45,460 nucleotides of DNA from an uncultured Verrucomicrobiales bacterium (lineage in GTDB: Bacteria > Verrucomicrobiota > Verrucomicrobiia > Limisphaerales > Palsa-1400), in contig CAIYOY010000102.1 of assembly GCA_903927905.1 (NCBI GenBank), positions 1 to 45,460 of the forward strand, in the 5' to 3' direction. Each line of letters starts with the position of its first letter. Positions within the stretch are counted from its first letter, which is position 1. The notes below the pieces were generated by a model. It made no database searches. It saw only the letters and a program-made list of their open reading frames with translations, and had not been told where the DNA came from. Below, one piece after another: positions 9,413 to 15,621 of this stretch. The position numbers and the translations under genes were made by a program.

Positions 9413-9760
9413 TCACAATCCGCCGTTGTGGCAGTCAGTACATTGAAAGGCCGGATCGTATTCGTCAATCGGATGGGCAAATTTCTGGCCCTGGGGCGAC
9501 AACACTTTCATCTGCTCCGGCTTGCCCTGGGCCAGAATGGTGTGGCACGAATTGCAATCGTTGAACTGAATCATCTTCTTTCCGTCGCCCGTCTTGTGCT
9601 GGCCGTCGTGGCAACGGAAGCAGCCGGGCCAATCCTTGTGGCCGATATTATCAGGATAGGCTTTCCAGCTCGATTTCATTTCCGGGAAAAAATTCTCTTT
9701 ATAGATATCCTGCACCGCAGCGATCGCCGGTTTGATCCGGCTGTCATTCGTGTAACGATT
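9413..9760 (-). pseudogene. 3' part of ImcH-like multiheme cytochrome, cut off by in-frame TAA
   Basis: This segment continues the preceding cytochrome frame without any shift after a single TAA at 9761-9763. It begins NRYTNDSRIKPAI and carries three more haem sites (CFRCH, CNSCH, CTDCH) before a normal TGA. An internal ATG at 9715 could restart translation, but the product would lack a signal peptide and could not be matured as a c-type cytochrome. With the upstream part the protein would be 494 residues with seven haem sites. It is most simply the decaying or misread 3' end of one gene. Whether the stop is real needs reads from the source. Confidence 0.75.
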
Positions 9761-10897
9761 TTACAAGGTGGCTGCGATCTGTTGCATCGCCTCGTCATTG
9801 TCCTTGTAAACCTTGCACAGCGCCCCGACGGCGTTCGTTTTGATGAAGGCCAACCCGGTGTCAATGCGGCCATCAGCCATGGCCAGATTCACCGAAGTTT
9901 CCGGGGTGATGAATTTATGCGCGGGCCGATTATGGCAATCCATGCAATCCATCCGCCGCACGGCCAGCTTGGGCCCATCGTTGGTAAAACTCGCGGTCTT
10001 GAATTCGGTCACTTTCCCGTTTTTGTCCGTCATCCGCACCCAGGGAATTTTCTGCCGGGCCTCGTCAGTCGCAATGTATTCGATCTTGTTGCCTACGTTC
10101 ATGTGCCAATGAATCCCGCCGACCGGCCCGTGGGTGGGGTCGCCACCGCCGACTTTCAAGGACAGACGAATGGAATAAAGCGAATTGGTTTCATCCGGCA
10201 AAAAGTAGTTATACGTCCGATCCAGATTTCCGACGTATTTGTTCGGCCAATGACATTGTTCACAGGTGTCCTGCGCCGGACGCAGGCCTTTGTTCGGCGG
10301 CGGAATCGGGCGCGGATAATTATTGCGGATCACGGCGAACAGTTGGTGCGTCCCGGAAACCTTCGATTTCAAATACCATTCCGCGCCATGGCCGACATGA
10401 CATTCCGCGCAGGCCACCCGCGCGTGCGGCGAATGCAGGTAAGTGGTCAACTCCGGCCCCATCACTTTGTGGCACGACTCTCCGCAAAACTGCACCGACT
10501 CGGTGAACTGATACGTGTGGTACGTTCCCATCGCGGTGATCAGAAAAAAACCGGCGCTAGCGGGAATAAAAACCGATAAAATGCGCCGGTCCCGTAACCT
10601 GGACAAATCAATGTCAATGTGGAGCGATCCGTTGGTGCCATTACCTTTGGCCAGTTTCCGCCGCCGCCACCAAGCTCCCAGCAAAAACAGCACCAGCCCG
10701 CCCAAAAAAAACGCTGGCGACACCAGATAAGTCAAAATTCCCACATACGGATTGGAGACGTGGGCGAACGCATCCATGAAAAACAGCAACACGAAGGCAA
10801 AGGCGCTGGCGGCCATGAGCACCGCCCCGGCCATGCTGACCCAGTTGCGGAAGATGGAAGGATTCCGTTTCAAACTGTCTGCTGGTGCTGTATTCAT
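9761..10897 (-). CDS. ImcH-like NapC/NirT-family inner-membrane cytochrome, 5' part (ends at premature TAA)
   Basis: 378 residues with three membrane helices (about 20-43, 51-74, 103-127), then a periplasmic domain with CX3CH (CGESCH), CAECH, CEQCH and CMDCH. The stretch from CGESCHKVMGPE through HSPHARVACAECH is typical of NapC/NrfH-type quinol-oxidising cytochromes. Three helices plus seven haem sites (counting those beyond the stop) match ImcH, the Geobacter inner-membrane cytochrome needed for respiration to high-potential external acceptors. That assignment is by architecture, not alignment. The frame stops at IAATL-TAA, and CAA (Gln) to TAA is the simplest origin. Truncation loses three of seven haems, so the product is probably non-functional unless the stop is read through or is a sequence error. 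Confidence 0.8.
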   Translation of the reverse strand: MNTAPADSLKRNPSIFRNWVSMAGAVLMAASAFAFVLLFFMDAFAHVSNPYVGILTYLVSPAFFLGGLVLFLLGAWWRRRKLAKGNGTNGSLHIDIDLSRLRDRRILSVFIPASAGFFLITAMGTYHTYQFTESVQFCGESCHKVMGPELTTYLHSPHARVACAECHVGHGAEWYLKSKVSGTHQLFAVIRNNYPRPIPPPNKGLRPAQDTCEQCHWPNKYVGNLDRTYNYFLPDETNSLYSIRLSLKVGGGDPTHGPVGGIHWHMNVGNKIEYIATDEARQKIPWVRMTDKNGKVTEFKTASFTNDGPKLAVRRMDCMDCHNRPAHKFITPETSVNLAMADGRIDTGLAFIKTNAVGALCKVYKDNDEAMQQIAATL

Positions 10898-11017: not shown

Positions 11018-11347
11018 TTACTTCTTGAACGACCGGATCAGCGCGACCAATGACTTGATCTGCTCATCGGACAAGCCTTCGGCCGGCTTCATCAAGGTCT
11101 TGTCATCTTTTTTCAAACCTTCCTTGATGGTCTTGATGGCGTCGGCGTCTTTCAATTCTGCCTGAACCTTGGCATCGGTGTAATCTTTGACGCCAAGTTT
11201 CTGACCCATTTTGGTTTGGCCTTTGCCGTCAGCGCCGTGGCATTTCGTGCAATTTTTCTCAAACAGATCCTTGGCGTCATCAGCGCGCACGCTGGTCAAA
11301 GCGCACACCGAGACGATCAGTCCTGCGATCATTAGTTTTGTTTTCAT
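11018..11347 (-). CDS. Small monoheme c-type cytochrome
   Basis: 109 residues with a Sec signal (cleavage likely after SVRA), one CTKCH haem site just after it, and the C-terminal MKPAEGLSDEQIKSLVALIR block whose Met is the likely sixth haem ligand. That is a class I cytochrome c fold acting as a soluble periplasmic carrier. It is a clear paralogue of the gene at 15295-15621: both share the CxKCHGADGxG and MKPAEG blocks and end in RSFKK. It lies between the NrfD-module genes and the ImcH-like gene, so carrying electrons between inner-membrane and periplasmic multiheme cytochromes is a reasonable inference. Confidence 0.9.
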   Translation of the reverse strand: MKTKLMIAGLIVSVCALTSVRADDAKDLFEKNCTKCHGADGKGQTKMGQKLGVKDYTDAKVQAELKDADAIKTIKEGLKKDDKTLMKPAEGLSDEQIKSLVALIRSFKK

Positions 11348-11475: not shown

Positions 11476-11934
11476 TTAACAGGCGCAGGCCGGAGAGGCT
11501 GAGCCCAGCAGATCACTCATCTCACAGAGAATTTGATAATAATCCTCGCGCTCCAAGCCCAGGGCTGCCGCCCCGAAGATCTCCGCATCATCCGGCGAAG
11601 CAAACTCGCCGTAATTCACCACCACCAGATGGTAGAAAACAAGGTGTGGCACCTTGTCCAGGCGGGTCATAAACATGGGATGAACATGCAGCATATAACC
11701 GTCTTCCGGTTTGGCTCCCTTGGCCAGCGGGCAGGCGAACTCGCCTGGTTGCAACATGCCGGCATTGAACTCGACGGTGCAGGGATAACGGACACAAGTG
11801 CGATCTTCCAAAATCTTCTGCAATTCCTTCCAGCCGATATGCGGCCCGTATTTTTCAAAAATATCGGTGCCCTTCGAAGCCACGTGGGCGCTTAAGGACT
11901 GCCTGGCATCGTCGGCGGTTAATTGTTTGGCCAT
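11476..11934 (-). CDS. Conserved-looking protein of unknown function in the NrfD module
   Basis: 152 residues, not recognised. No signal peptide or membrane segment, so presumably cytosolic. Features seen are an N-terminal helical stretch, a central segment with several Cys residues (RTCVRYPC, then ACPLAKG), a His-rich GYMLHVHPMF stretch, an acidic C-terminal helix and a terminal CAC. It lies 9 bp downstream of the NrfD-cNMP gene and is very likely co-transcribed with it. The Cys and His residues could bind metal or form disulphides. Assembly or regulation of the cytosolic face of the NrfD complex is a guess from position only. Confidence 0.7.
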   Translation of the reverse strand: MAKQLTADDARQSLSAHVASKGTDIFEKYGPHIGWKELQKILEDRTCVRYPCTVEFNAGMLQPGEFACPLAKGAKPEDGYMLHVHPMFMTRLDKVPHLVFYHLVVVNYGEFASPDDAEIFGAAALGLEREDYYQILCEMSDLLGSASPACAC

Positions 11935-11943
11935 AATATTTTC

Positions 11944-13641
11944 CTAAAAACGGTCGTGACCTTCATTGGCCTGAGTCAGGCGGCCTTGCAGGATTGGCAC
12001 CGCCATCCGCAGCATGAGGGTGTAGCAAAAAAGACCAAAGGCCCAGATGCCGAGGCAAACCAGGGTTTCATTCAACGATGGCATATACTCGACAATCGCA
12101 CCCAGCGGCGAGGGGATGAATCCGGGAATGACCAACCCCATCCCCTTTTCGATCCAAATCCCGGTGATACAAAGCACACAGGTGACATTGAGCCATTTCA
12201 AACTGCGGCTGACCGGCAGCACGAGCAGAACCATGGCTATGAGATTGAACCCGACCGCCGTCCAGATCCACGGCACCAACGCGTGATACCCGTGCAAACC
12301 GGTGAACAGATATTTCGACGAAGCCACATGATGGGTGCCGGAATAAAATTCCTTGAACACTTCGTTGGCCAGGAGAAAGACGTTGATCAACATGGAAACC
12401 TGCACGATGTTCCGCAGCGTCATCAGCGCGCGATCGGTGATCAACAACCGCTCCGACATGCGCGCGTGGATGATTTTATTCATGCCCGGAACTTTCATGA
12501 GCAGGCGCAGGGATTCCACCGGCAGGCTCAAGACACGTGAGGGTTCCTCGGCGATGGCAGTGGCGGTGCGCGGAGTTCCAGCCAGCGCGGAGATTTCGCC
12601 AAATTGTTCGCCCGGACTGAGACTGCGGGTGATACGAAAGCGACCGCCTTCCTCGCGCTTCACGACGATGCTGCCTTCGAGGACAAAATAGGCCTTGGTA
12701 TCTATCTCGCCTTGCTTGAGCAAAATTTCGCCGGGCGCGGCCTCCCAAATTTTGGCACCGGCGAGGATGGACGTGATCGTGTCTCTGGACAATTTGCCCA
12801 GTTGCGGCAGATGTTTCCCAAGCGTCTCAAAGTCGGCCATGGTGGCGGGATGACTTTCCGGGTTGTGAGTGGTCCCTTCGCTGCCGGAAACAGACGAGCC
12901 GGTGACGCGCCGGACGACTTGCATGGCGAGGATGATCAACGCCGGACCGGCGGTGAAGGCTGAAGCCAAAAAGCGCGGGCCAACGATGGCTGAATTCCAA
13001 AAGGCACGGCCCCCAAGCCCAACGTAGAGAAACGCCGTCACGGTATGGATGGAAACAGCCCAGACGATGGCGATAAAAACAAACGGAATATAAAACCATT
13101 TGGATGGCGTCCGCCCGCGATAACGGCAGTAAAGCAGATAGCCGCAAATATAGACGTTGAGCACCAGATAGCCGTTCAACACGATCACGTCCCAACTAAG
13201 CATCGAAGCCGGGAAATTGAATTGACCGATGCCGGGAATCAGATGCCAGAAACGGTCCGGTCGGCCGAGGTCCACGGTCACGAAAGCCAGACACATGATG
13301 ATTGCCGCCACCGCCAGTAATTCGCCAAAGATGACGAGGTCGTGCAATTCCTCGTTCTTATAGATATAAACCGGGATCACCATCATCACGGCCGCCGCCG
13401 CCACGCCGACCAGAAAAGTGAAGTTGGCGATGTAAACACCCCACGACACTTCGTCCGTCATGCCGGTGACGATCAGTCCGTGCGCGAATTGCCGGCAATA
13501 AGCGTTCAGCCCGATCAGGCAAACTCCGAAGAGCGCGCCCATCCAGGTGAAATAGCGCCAGTCGCCTTTAACCGTGAGCCTGGCACAGCGCCACAGAAAC
13601 ATGATATAATTCCGCGCCGAACGTTGGATGCTGATGGTCAT
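11944..13641 (-). CDS. NrfD/PsrC-type membrane subunit with an internal cyclic-nucleotide-binding domain
   Basis: 565 residues. About six membrane helices (roughly 30-48, 70-93, 103-123, 150-172, 184-207, 220-243) are followed by a soluble cNMP-binding domain (about 270-395) and four more helices (about 408-428, 455-477, 483-505, 520-547). NrfD/PsrC proteins hold the quinol site and pass electrons to a periplasmic iron-sulphur partner, which here is the ferredoxin whose stop overlaps this start (ATGA). The soluble domain has the phosphate-binding cassette FGEISALAGTPRTATA with Glu349 and Arg358, the residues that contact cyclic-nucleotide ribose and phosphate. The insertion lies in a loop between helix bundles and suggests allosteric control by cAMP or cGMP. 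It ends in TAG. Confidence 0.88.
   Translation of the reverse strand: MTISIQRSARNYIMFLWRCARLTVKGDWRYFTWMGALFGVCLIGLNAYCRQFAHGLIVTGMTDEVSWGVYIANFTFLVGVAAAAVMMVIPVYIYKNEELHDLVIFGELLAVAAIIMCLAFVTVDLGRPDRFWHLIPGIGQFNFPASMLSWDVIVLNGYLVLNVYICGYLLYCRYRGRTPSKWFYIPFVFIAIVWAVSIHTVTAFLYVGLGGRAFWNSAIVGPRFLASAFTAGPALIILAMQVVRRVTGSSVSGSEGTTHNPESHPATMADFETLGKHLPQLGKLSRDTITSILAGAKIWEAAPGEILLKQGEIDTKAYFVLEGSIVVKREEGGRFRITRSLSPGEQFGEISALAGTPRTATAIAEEPSRVLSLPVESLRLLMKVPGMNKIIHARMSERLLITDRALMTLRNIVQVSMLINVFLLANEVFKEFYSGTHHVASSKYLFTGLHGYHALVPWIWTAVGFNLIAMVLLVLPVSRSLKWLNVTCVLCITGIWIEKGMGLVIPGFIPSPLGAIVEYMPSLNETLVCLGIWAFGLFCYTLMLRMAVPILQGRLTQANEGHDRF
12457..12834 (-). other. cNMP-binding domain inserted between helices 6 and 7 of the NrfD protein
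   Basis: Encodes about residues 270-395 of the NrfD-type protein. It holds an N-terminal helical linker, the beta-roll with GEILLKQGE and YFVLEGSIVV turns, the cassette FGEISALAGTPRTATA, and a C-terminal helix leading into the next membrane span. The reading frame is continuous across both borders, so this is a genuine fusion rather than adjacent genes. Which nucleotide binds, and whether the loop is cytosolic, is inferred. Confidence 0.8.
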
Positions 13642-14576
13642 ACGTCAAAGTAGTAAAAGAACCGTGGTGAGGTTCCCAATTCCTCTTTCAATTGGATGAA
13701 GACACGCTTGGTCCGCAGGATTTGCGAAACTTCGCTGTTGGGATCGAGAATGTTGCCGAATTTCCGCGCGCCGGCCGGGCAGACTTCCAGGCACGCGGGA
13801 TAACGTCCGGCGCGGGTGCGCTGGATGCAGAAGTGGCATTTTTCCATCACCCCCTGGCGGCGCGGACGATTGCCGAGGTAGGACATTTCCGGATTCAGCC
13901 GTTCCTTGGGAATGGACGGTTTGGTGAAATTAAAACGGCGCGCAAAATAGGGGCAGGCGGCTTCGCAATAGCGGCAGCCGATGCACCAATCGTAATCAAT
14001 GACCGTGATGCCGTCCTTTTCCTGCCAGGTGGCATGGACCGGGCAAACTTTTACGCAGGGCGGGTTCTGGCATTGTTGACACTGCACCGGCATGTAGAAG
14101 AAACCCTTCTCCGGCACCTGGGGCGGGTTGTAATTATGCTCGGCCTTGTCAATGTCCATGGAACCGTGCGGCAGCCTGAGCACGCGGATGTATTGGATCT
14201 CCGGGCTGCGTGACTGATTGTTTTCCGCGACGCAGGCATGGACGCATTTGCGGCAGCCGATGCAGCGGGTCAGGTTCAGGCAATAAACAAATTCCACGCC
14301 GTCCATCGGTTTGAGATCGCGCACGTGTGGCCGGACGCCATATTGTTTTTCCACTTCATTCTCGATGCGCTTGAGGACCAACGCCATGTCGGCTGGCGTC
14401 ATTTCCTTGTAATACTTCTGCATGAACCGTTCGGCGGTGGGGAAGTCCTCCATCTCCATCAACGGTTTCAAGCTGGCCGCCAGCGCGGCCAGGCCGGTGG
14501 TCAGCACCGCCGAGTTCCGCAAAAAATTTCGCCGCGACATTCCGCCGTTGGCGCCCGATTGGTTTGGTATATCCAT
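13638..14576 (-). CDS. Tat-exported 4x[4Fe-4S] ferredoxin-like electron transfer subunit (NrfC/HybA/DmsB type)
   Basis: 312 residues with a twin-arginine signal (SRRNFLR near residue 14). Four Cys groups follow: CIGCRKCVHAC, CQQCQNPPCVKVC, CIGCRYCEAAC and CHFCIQRTRAGRYPACLEVC, enough for four cubane clusters. Such subunits relay electrons between an NrfD membrane partner and a periplasmic redox protein. No molybdopterin catalytic subunit is encoded nearby. The neighbours are instead a tetraheme cytochrome (upstream) and NrfD (overlapping downstream), so the clusters probably feed cytochromes directly, as in quinol:cytochrome modules of the alternative complex III or Nrf kind. Confidence 0.92.
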   Translation of the reverse strand: MDIPNQSGANGGMSRRNFLRNSAVLTTGLAALAASLKPLMEMEDFPTAERFMQKYYKEMTPADMALVLKRIENEVEKQYGVRPHVRDLKPMDGVEFVYCLNLTRCIGCRKCVHACVAENNQSRSPEIQYIRVLRLPHGSMDIDKAEHNYNPPQVPEKGFFYMPVQCQQCQNPPCVKVCPVHATWQEKDGITVIDYDWCIGCRYCEAACPYFARRFNFTKPSIPKERLNPEMSYLGNRPRRQGVMEKCHFCIQRTRAGRYPACLEVCPAGARKFGNILDPNSEVSQILRTKRVFIQLKEELGTSPRFFYYFDV

Positions 14577-14581
14577 AAAAG

Positions 14582-15220
14582 TTAAGTTTCTGGGTGATGC
14601 TCCACGGCTGGCGCGGCTATCTCCCGCATGGGATGCGGGCCAGGAGCCGGTGCCCGCCCGGGAAAATGCGGGGAGTGCGGGTTATGACAATTCACGCAAT
14701 CCTTGCGCACGATCGGCCCCAGGCTCCGGTCCCAGTAACCCAGGGTCTTCCCATGCACCCCGGCGTCCCAATCGCGATACGTGGGGCCGTGGCAGCTTCC
14801 GCATAACTGCGTGCTTTCGGTAAATTTCAATTCCTTCCCGTCCCGCGTCTGCAACACTTCCAGGTTCGCGTCATTGTGGCAGTTGAAACAATTATTGTTC
14901 CGTCCGTGGCTGCCGTGGCCCATGACGATGTCGGGATGTTCCTTGGCCACGATCACGTTCTGATGCTCGTCAAAGTGCAACGGCGGCGGGGTTTTATGAT
15001 CGTGACAGGCATAGCAATCGAAATCAGACAGATCTTCCTTCGCTGCCACCAGGTCGGCGTACGACCGCCGCCAAGTCGCGGTATCAAGAAAATTCGTCGC
15101 CACCAGCGGGATCTGGGGGCGATGGGGCGGCGCGCCAAACCCATCGAAAAAAAACATCAGCGCCATCGCGGCAAAACCGGCAGTCAACAGCCAGAGGGTG
15201 GTATTGGTTTTTTTATTCAT
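14582..15220 (-). CDS. Membrane-anchored tetraheme c-type cytochrome
   Basis: 212 residues with one N-terminal hydrophobic segment (about 8-27) that is probably an uncleaved anchor, then CYACH, CFNCH, CGSCH and CVNCH. His-rich stretches (HGSHGR, HNPHSPHFPG) can provide distal ligands. It starts the tetraheme-ferredoxin-NrfD set, with only 5 bp to the ferredoxin gene. The likely role is the cytochrome output of that quinol-oxidising module, passing electrons to the soluble monoheme or multiheme cytochromes. Confidence 0.88.
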   Translation of the reverse strand: MNKKTNTTLWLLTAGFAAMALMFFFDGFGAPPHRPQIPLVATNFLDTATWRRSYADLVAAKEDLSDFDCYACHDHKTPPPLHFDEHQNVIVAKEHPDIVMGHGSHGRNNNCFNCHNDANLEVLQTRDGKELKFTESTQLCGSCHGPTYRDWDAGVHGKTLGYWDRSLGPIVRKDCVNCHNPHSPHFPGRAPAPGPHPMREIAAPAVEHHPET

Positions 15221-15294: not shown

Positions 15295-15621
15295 TTATTT
15301 TTTGAAGGACCGCACTTTGGCCACGAGGCCTTTGATGTCCGCGTCGGTCACGCCTTCGGCGGGTTTCATCTTCACCTTGTCTCCGTCTTTCAGTCCTTCT
15401 TTGATCGCTTTGGCGGCCTGTTCATCGGTGAACCCGGCCTGGAACTTTGGGTCCGTCATGTCTTTGACGCCCATCTTGGCCCCCATCTTGGTATTGCCCA
15501 CGCCGTCGGCGCCGTGGCATTTGATGCAGGTCTTTTCCCAAACTTCTGCCGGGTCCGCTCGCAGCGCGAGGGCGGTCGCGGCCAGGGCCAGGGGAATGAG
15601 GATTAATTTGGATGTTTTCAT
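15295..15621 (-). CDS. Small monoheme c-type cytochrome (paralogue of 11018-11347)
   Basis: 108 residues with a Sec signal (cleavage likely after LALRA), one CIKCH site, and a C-terminal KMKPAEGVTDADIKGLVAKVR block with the probable Met haem ligand. It shares with its paralogue the layout, the CxKCHGADGxG and MKPAEG motifs and the RSFKK end. Two paralogues flank the tetraheme-ferredoxin-NrfD module, which suggests a duplication serving different partners. It should be periplasmic. Phased 10-bp repeats lie about 165 bp upstream. Confidence 0.9.
   Translation of the reverse strand: MKTSKLILIPLALAATALALRADPAEVWEKTCIKCHGADGVGNTKMGAKMGVKDMTDPKFQAGFTDEQAAKAIKEGLKDGDKVKMKPAEGVTDADIKGLVAKVRSFKK

Follow-up and report, generated by a model that had tools for sequence, protein, structure and literature searches.

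A predicted cyclic-nucleotide-binding domain inserted into a DsrP-like membrane protein of Verrucomicrobiota

The window analyzed here, a stretch of 45,460 nucleotides from an uncultured Verrucomicrobiales bacterium, encodes a membrane protein of the DsrP/NrfD family in which a cyclic-nucleotide (cNMP)-binding domain is inserted between the sixth and seventh of ten transmembrane helices (TM). This DsrP-cNMP fusion is recurrent in Verrucomicrobiota and not a chimera of one genome. Both component families are known, and their combination appeared to be new relative to the literature searched, in which no report of an NrfD/DsrP-cNMP fusion was found. An initial sequence-only reading had held that NrfD proteins normally lack regulatory domains, in agreement with the failure to find any other such case in that literature. 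As a strong prediction from sequence, a second messenger may act directly as an on-or-off switch of an electron-transfer route. In bacteria, cAMP steers respiration via transcription factors. If the prediction is true, a second-messenger domain in a quinone-reactive subunit would throttle electron flow fast and without new transcription, as a post-translational counterpart to the cAMP-CRP control of respiration, and the natural pairs of fused and domain-less proteins make the idea directly testable by comparison.

Architecture of the fused protein

The fused protein and its parts were located as follows.

11944..13641, minus strand: DsrP/NrfD-family ten-helix membrane protein with inserted cNMP-binding domain, 565 residues (profile matches and AlphaFold2 model)
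12904..12978, minus strand: TM6 (TMH5 in the NrfD literature), residues 222-246, with a predicted cytosolic RR at its end (model with hydropathy and charge profile)
12442..12897, minus strand: insert, residues about 249-400, in place of a 3-residue TM6-TM7 turn (alignment of 53 fused and 34 domain-less relatives)
12556..12603, minus strand: phosphate-binding cassette, F347-G-E349-ISALAGTP-R358-TATA362 (invariant columns)
12457..12489, minus strand: C-terminal (lid) helix of the domain, residues 385-395 (secondary structure of the model)
12343..12435, minus strand: TM7 (TMH6), residues 403-433, right behind the insert (model; joined to TM6 by the turn in domain-less relatives)

The Pfam NrfD family matched residues 58-247 with 124 bits (cut-off 25.8), a score above the gathering cut-off for the NrfD/PsrC superfamily, and the cNMP_binding family matched residues 301-382 with 69.4 bits (cut-off 27.5, E 2.6e-19). 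The NrfD model reached only the first half of the ORF because the cNMP domain interrupts the family, and the membrane part picked up again after residue 401. The NCBIfam DsrP model (NF045798) matched the ORF in two stretches with 412 bits against a curated equivalog cut-off of 350, and a domain-less relative (L101) covered the same model end to end with 424 bits. On these profile scores, the ORF is best placed as a putative DsrP-like member of the NrfD family. The earlier assignment to the NrfD/PsrC type thus held at the level of the family, while the generic type gave way to a DsrP-like one; the accompanying label of quinol oxidase is an assumption on the direction of electron flow and on the partner. 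The domain had been put at residues 270-395, which mapped exactly to 12457-12834, and the insert was found to be slightly wider, consisting of a flexible linker (249-263) followed by the cNMP-binding domain (about 264-400). Its site between helices 6 and 7 was agreed on by hydropathy and the AlphaFold2 model.

Hydropathy over the alignment gave ten helices, and Arg/Lys residues clustered at both termini, in the TM4-TM5 and TM8-TM9 loops and at the end of TM6, a distribution that places the N-terminus and the TM6-TM7 loop in the cytosol. The helices of the AlphaFold2 model (mean pLDDT 78, mostly 85-94 in the domain) agreed with those from hydropathy, and the model matched ActC in four alternative complex III structures with Z of about 29 over 362-378 residues. 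The NrfD/PsrC architecture of 8-10 helices in two four-helix bundles with a P-side 4Fe-4S partner was recognized in this match, which extended over the entire membrane part, and in the adjacent DsrO-like protein bearing a Tat-type motif. According to the review by Calisto and Pereira (PMC8076601), ten-helix NrfD members, DsrP included, consist of a pair of four-helix bundles and the additional helices A and B. The nine-helix TtrC is without helix A and has its N-terminus at the P-side. In the numbering of that review, the insert falls within the second bundle, where it separates TMH5 from TMH6. The helix count, the positive-inside rule and the alternative complex III homologues together predicted a cytosolic cNMP domain, and not the periplasmic placement that had been raised as the adverse case for nucleotide binding. 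A 7-residue joint, with M395 and R398 invariant, links the lid helix to TM7 and was modeled with low confidence (pLDDT about 64). A lid helix continuous with TM7 was ruled out by a break at 396-402 in the model.

The model of the inserted domain displayed the complete cNMP fold, that is, N-terminal helices, beta roll and lid helix, with VIA-align Z values up to 17, and the matches included the M. loti K+ channel (Z about 16-17) and the cNMP-bound domains of PKA, PKG and SthK. Glu349 and Arg358, which had been described as kept, were indeed at those positions and invariant in all 53 fused relatives; we take these residues to be the ones that canonically contact ribose and phosphate in cNMP domains. 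F347, Gly348 and Ala362 were likewise identical in 53 of 53, and A360 was present in at least 51, so the cassette follows the pattern G-E-x8-R-x-A with its G348, E349 and R358 in every domain. The columns that never changed were L274, G311, G323, R336, G344, F347, G348, E349, R358, A362, M395 and R398, and 30 of the 139 domain columns were kept in at least 51 of the 53 sequences. The mean p-distance was 0.42 for the domain versus 0.17 for the membrane part, corresponding to an about 2.5 times faster evolution of the domain. Nevertheless, the domain is under purifying selection despite its fast divergence, as dN was about 0.02-0.18 versus dS of 0.26-1.1, with dN/dS well below 1 in all computed pairs. 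That the contacts stay invariant in a domain that changes so fast argues for a bound ligand. The residue following Arg358 varied (T in 14, M in 14, V in 11 and A in 6 of the 53, plus others), and cGMP selectivity was therefore not assigned from the Thr of the window; ligand selectivity is not fixed by this position.

Distribution and history of the fusion

A search for further NrfD-cNMP fusions yielded 53 distinct fused relatives across Verrucomicrobiota, which were aligned with 34 domain-less proteins after removal of duplicates. In every fused relative, 151-162 residues occupied the site of the short turn of the domain-less proteins (typically RRVT-xYH/R-ITDKALLTLR), and both forms had the same flanking helices. 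The full-length fused relatives were found at 63-79% identity, and closely related fused and domain-less pairs differed by as little as 9-11% in the membrane part. The fused form was present in about 31 of 320 genomes sampled from the order of the window, two of them partial, in 5 of 388 genomes sampled across the phylum, the window's own counted, and at more than 50 loci of the genome collection. The best 80 collection matches listed were from Verrucomicrobiota, save for uninformative bin titles and two apparently mislabelled entries. The fused form was not found in plasmid records, where the matches were confined to domain-less NrfD/DsrP proteins and a single weak one to the cNMP region. Separately, the DsrP sequences of bins titled Proteobacteria, Klebsiella pneumoniae and Akkermansia muciniphila (L061, L063, L086, L098) grouped with environmental Verrucomicrobiota, and these bins are probably mislabelled.

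Chance is excluded as the origin of the fusion by the E-value and by its preservation across many independent assemblies. An assembly or gene-prediction artefact joining two genes would find some room in the fragmented draft genome of the window (81% complete), but is extremely improbable, as NrfD-family sequence runs on at both sides of the domain and the identical boundaries and open frame recur in more than 50 independent assemblies; these counts ruled it out.

In a tree built from the membrane part alone, fused proteins were scattered, requiring 9 changes by parsimony, at least 4 of which were forced by well-supported branches, and a single fused clade was rejected (p-AU 0.014). The deepest branches and closest outgroups were without the domain. 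Because the inserts share boundaries and a set of invariant residues, a single origin with repeated later loss or allele exchange seems likelier than repeated independent insertion. The fusion is a recurrent, gained-and-lost feature of Verrucomicrobiota.

Operon context and proposed mechanism

The genes surrounding the fused gene in the window were as follows.

15295..15621, minus strand: small monohaem cytochrome c (Cytochrome_CBB3)
14582..15220, minus strand: DsrJ-like membrane-anchored multihaem cytochrome c with four CXXCH (Cytochrome_C7)
13638..14576, minus strand: DsrO-like 4Fe-4S protein, periplasmic, with an N-terminal SRRNFL Tat-type motif (Fer4 families; motif read from sequence)
11476..11934, minus strand: 152-residue protein of no family, with no evident signal peptide (no Pfam or NCBIfam match)
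11018..11347, minus strand: small monohaem cytochrome c, downstream (Cytochrom_C, 49 bits)

The conserved unit, seen at most loci with enough flank, comprised cytochrome c, DsrJ-like protein, DsrO-like protein, DsrP in its fused or domain-less form, and the 152-residue protein. The DsrJ-like gene immediately preceded DsrO in nearly all relatives of either form, a cytochrome c gene came before DsrJ in most loci whose flanks were long enough, and the 152-residue protein was encoded by the next gene in most operons, fused and domain-less alike. The best match of the DsrO-like protein was NCBIfam DsrO with 176 bits, under the cut-off of 200. The model of the 152-residue protein had a pLDDT of 92, yet no PDB fold match below E 1 was found. 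Most of the 34 relatives lacking the cNMP domain shared the operon; a stand-alone cNMP protein substituting for the domain was rejected for these domain-less operons, since none was found within the flanks examined. Downstream of the unit, the window has another cytochrome c, a NapC/NrfH-like cytochrome and haem genes; on the upstream side are multihaem cytochromes, an NHL protein and a large ORF interpreted as an outer-membrane protein. These porin-side genes were not conserved beside the fused operon in other genomes, and extracellular electron transfer is therefore a local hint outside our claim. The NapC/NrfH-like multihaem cytochrome gene (9413-10897, minus strand) carried an in-frame TAA near 9761; its relatives read through this site as one protein, mostly of about 495-530 residues, so that the copy in the window is a broken gene or contains a sequencing error.

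Neither DsrM nor DsrK was present among the annotated neighbors in the window and in the flanks of three relatives. DsrC was not found in the genome of the window (81% complete) nor in 8 of 9 fused relatives, and the search for DsrA gave nothing above the cut-off in any of the 10 genomes. A DsrMKJOP-based sulfur metabolism was hence not supported for the window's genome, and the failure to find DsrC, or DsrA above the cut-off, indicated a quinone module of DsrJOP-like type outside a Dsr context. As a separate case, one fused-form genome (G117; L128/L129) harbored DsrC and DsrA/B-like genes on one contig (C14), possibly representing a dissimilatory sulfite reductase of Verrucomicrobiota; its DsrA-like gene scored below the curated cut-off.

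Class III cyclase domains were detected in 9 of 9 genomes checked, whether or not these carried the fused form. The genome of the window contained four, and on inspection two of these had the adenylate-cyclase-type motifs K...GD and T...N..SR intact. One fused-form genome (G049) had about 30 such domains, far above its relatives.

We consider it reasonably probable that the cAMP-type regulatory domain acts allosterically on a quinol:periplasmic-cytochrome module. The ligand would most likely be cAMP or another 3',5'-cNMP from the class III cyclases of the cell, and its binding would pull in the lid helix, seven residues before TM7. Closure of the lid could then shift the second four-helix bundle, and this shift would change the rate of DsrJOP-like electron transfer between the quinone pool and periplasmic multihaem cytochromes, so that quinol turnover might be either raised or lowered, with the direction of flow likewise presumed. 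In the NrfD review (PMC8076601), the second bundle is linked to a proposed proton half-channel and a gate residue. The putative mechanical coupling of lid helix and TM7 would act through the joint, modeled at the low pLDDT given above. Since the closest outgroups and many relatives that share the operon have no such domain, it is dispensable for the core reaction; the occurrence of the operon with and without it fits a modular regulatory add-on. That a respiratory quinone-reactive complex is switched directly by a cyclic nucleotide on its own membrane subunit, in a manner repeatedly gained or lost across Verrucomicrobiota, is a wider proposition for which we see the case as evenly balanced.

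The domain might instead bind a cNMP without gating and control assembly, stability or clustering, or recruit a partner in the cytosol, for example the 152-residue neighbor or a cyclase. The flexible linker on the TM6 side and the low-confidence joint to TM7 would permit such a tethered module, and the adjacent gene encodes the conserved neighbor, which shows no evident signal peptide; however, that protein also accompanies the domain-less version and is not specific to the domain, and insertion within the helical bundle, not at a terminus, suits allostery better, making this explanation rather unlikely. It is improbable that the domain senses a ligand other than a 3',5'-cNMP, for example a cyclic dinucleotide or some other ligand with phosphate, in the manner of several CRP/FNR relatives. 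The variable residue after the cassette Arg and the unusual, strongly kept basic residues R329, R336 and R339 ahead of the cassette would accord with it, but the canonical spacing of Gly-Glu...Arg-x-Ala with key residues identical in all 53 corresponds to a classical cNMP ribose-phosphate site, and cAMP- and cGMP-bound domains were among the best fold matches. A structural relic, that is, a neutral insertion whose fold is kept with no signaling role, could account for the patchy presence outside a single clade and the higher dN of the domain than of the membrane part. It is nonetheless very improbable, given that the ligand-contact residues stayed invariant while the remainder diverged, that dN/dS was low, and that no degenerate cassette occurred in the 53 domains.

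Comparison with known systems

The fused protein resembles DsrP of DsrMKJOP in its membrane part, which scored above the DsrP cut-off, and in the adjacent DsrO-like and DsrJ-like genes, and differs in that no DsrM/DsrK was found beside it in the window. To our knowledge, no characterized DsrP has an inserted domain. On a plasmid of Flammeovirga kamogawensis (L134, 4903-7161), a domain-less DsrP was located beside NapD, a molybdopterin oxidoreductase and cytochrome c3, which suggests that it is the quinol partner of a Nap-type enzyme and that proteins of the DsrP-like kind work with other partners as well. The fold is shared with ActC/ActF of alternative complex III, QrcD and PsrC, with ten helices in ActC, although the identity was about 14-20% over the fold alignments, and a regulatory domain is not mentioned in the consulted passages of the NrfD family review (PMC8076601). 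Porin-multihaem clusters from freshwater Verrucomicrobia (He et al. 2017, PMC5615132), of the same phylum, resemble the upstream outer-membrane-like ORF and multihaem cytochromes of the window; the main text of that paper leaves NrfD, DsrP and cyclic nucleotides unmentioned.

With regard to the domain, the mycobacterial acetyltransferase Rv0998 (Pat) also has a cNMP-binding domain fused to a catalytic one (fold Z about 16), but it is a soluble acetyltransferase and no respiratory membrane protein. The sperm Na+/H+ exchanger SLC9C1, reported to be gated by voltage and cAMP (PMC10620091), is a non-channel membrane protein with a cNMP-binding domain, and SpSLC9C1 was among the fold matches; in contrast to the fused DsrP, it is a eukaryotic transporter with a voltage sensor and an unrelated membrane fold. 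In MloK1, SthK and the HCN/CNG channels, a cytosolic cNMP domain (Z about 15-17) acts on a membrane domain. The domain of these channels comes after the last pore helix, whereas that of the fused DsrP is placed inside the helical bundle of a putative electron-transfer protein.
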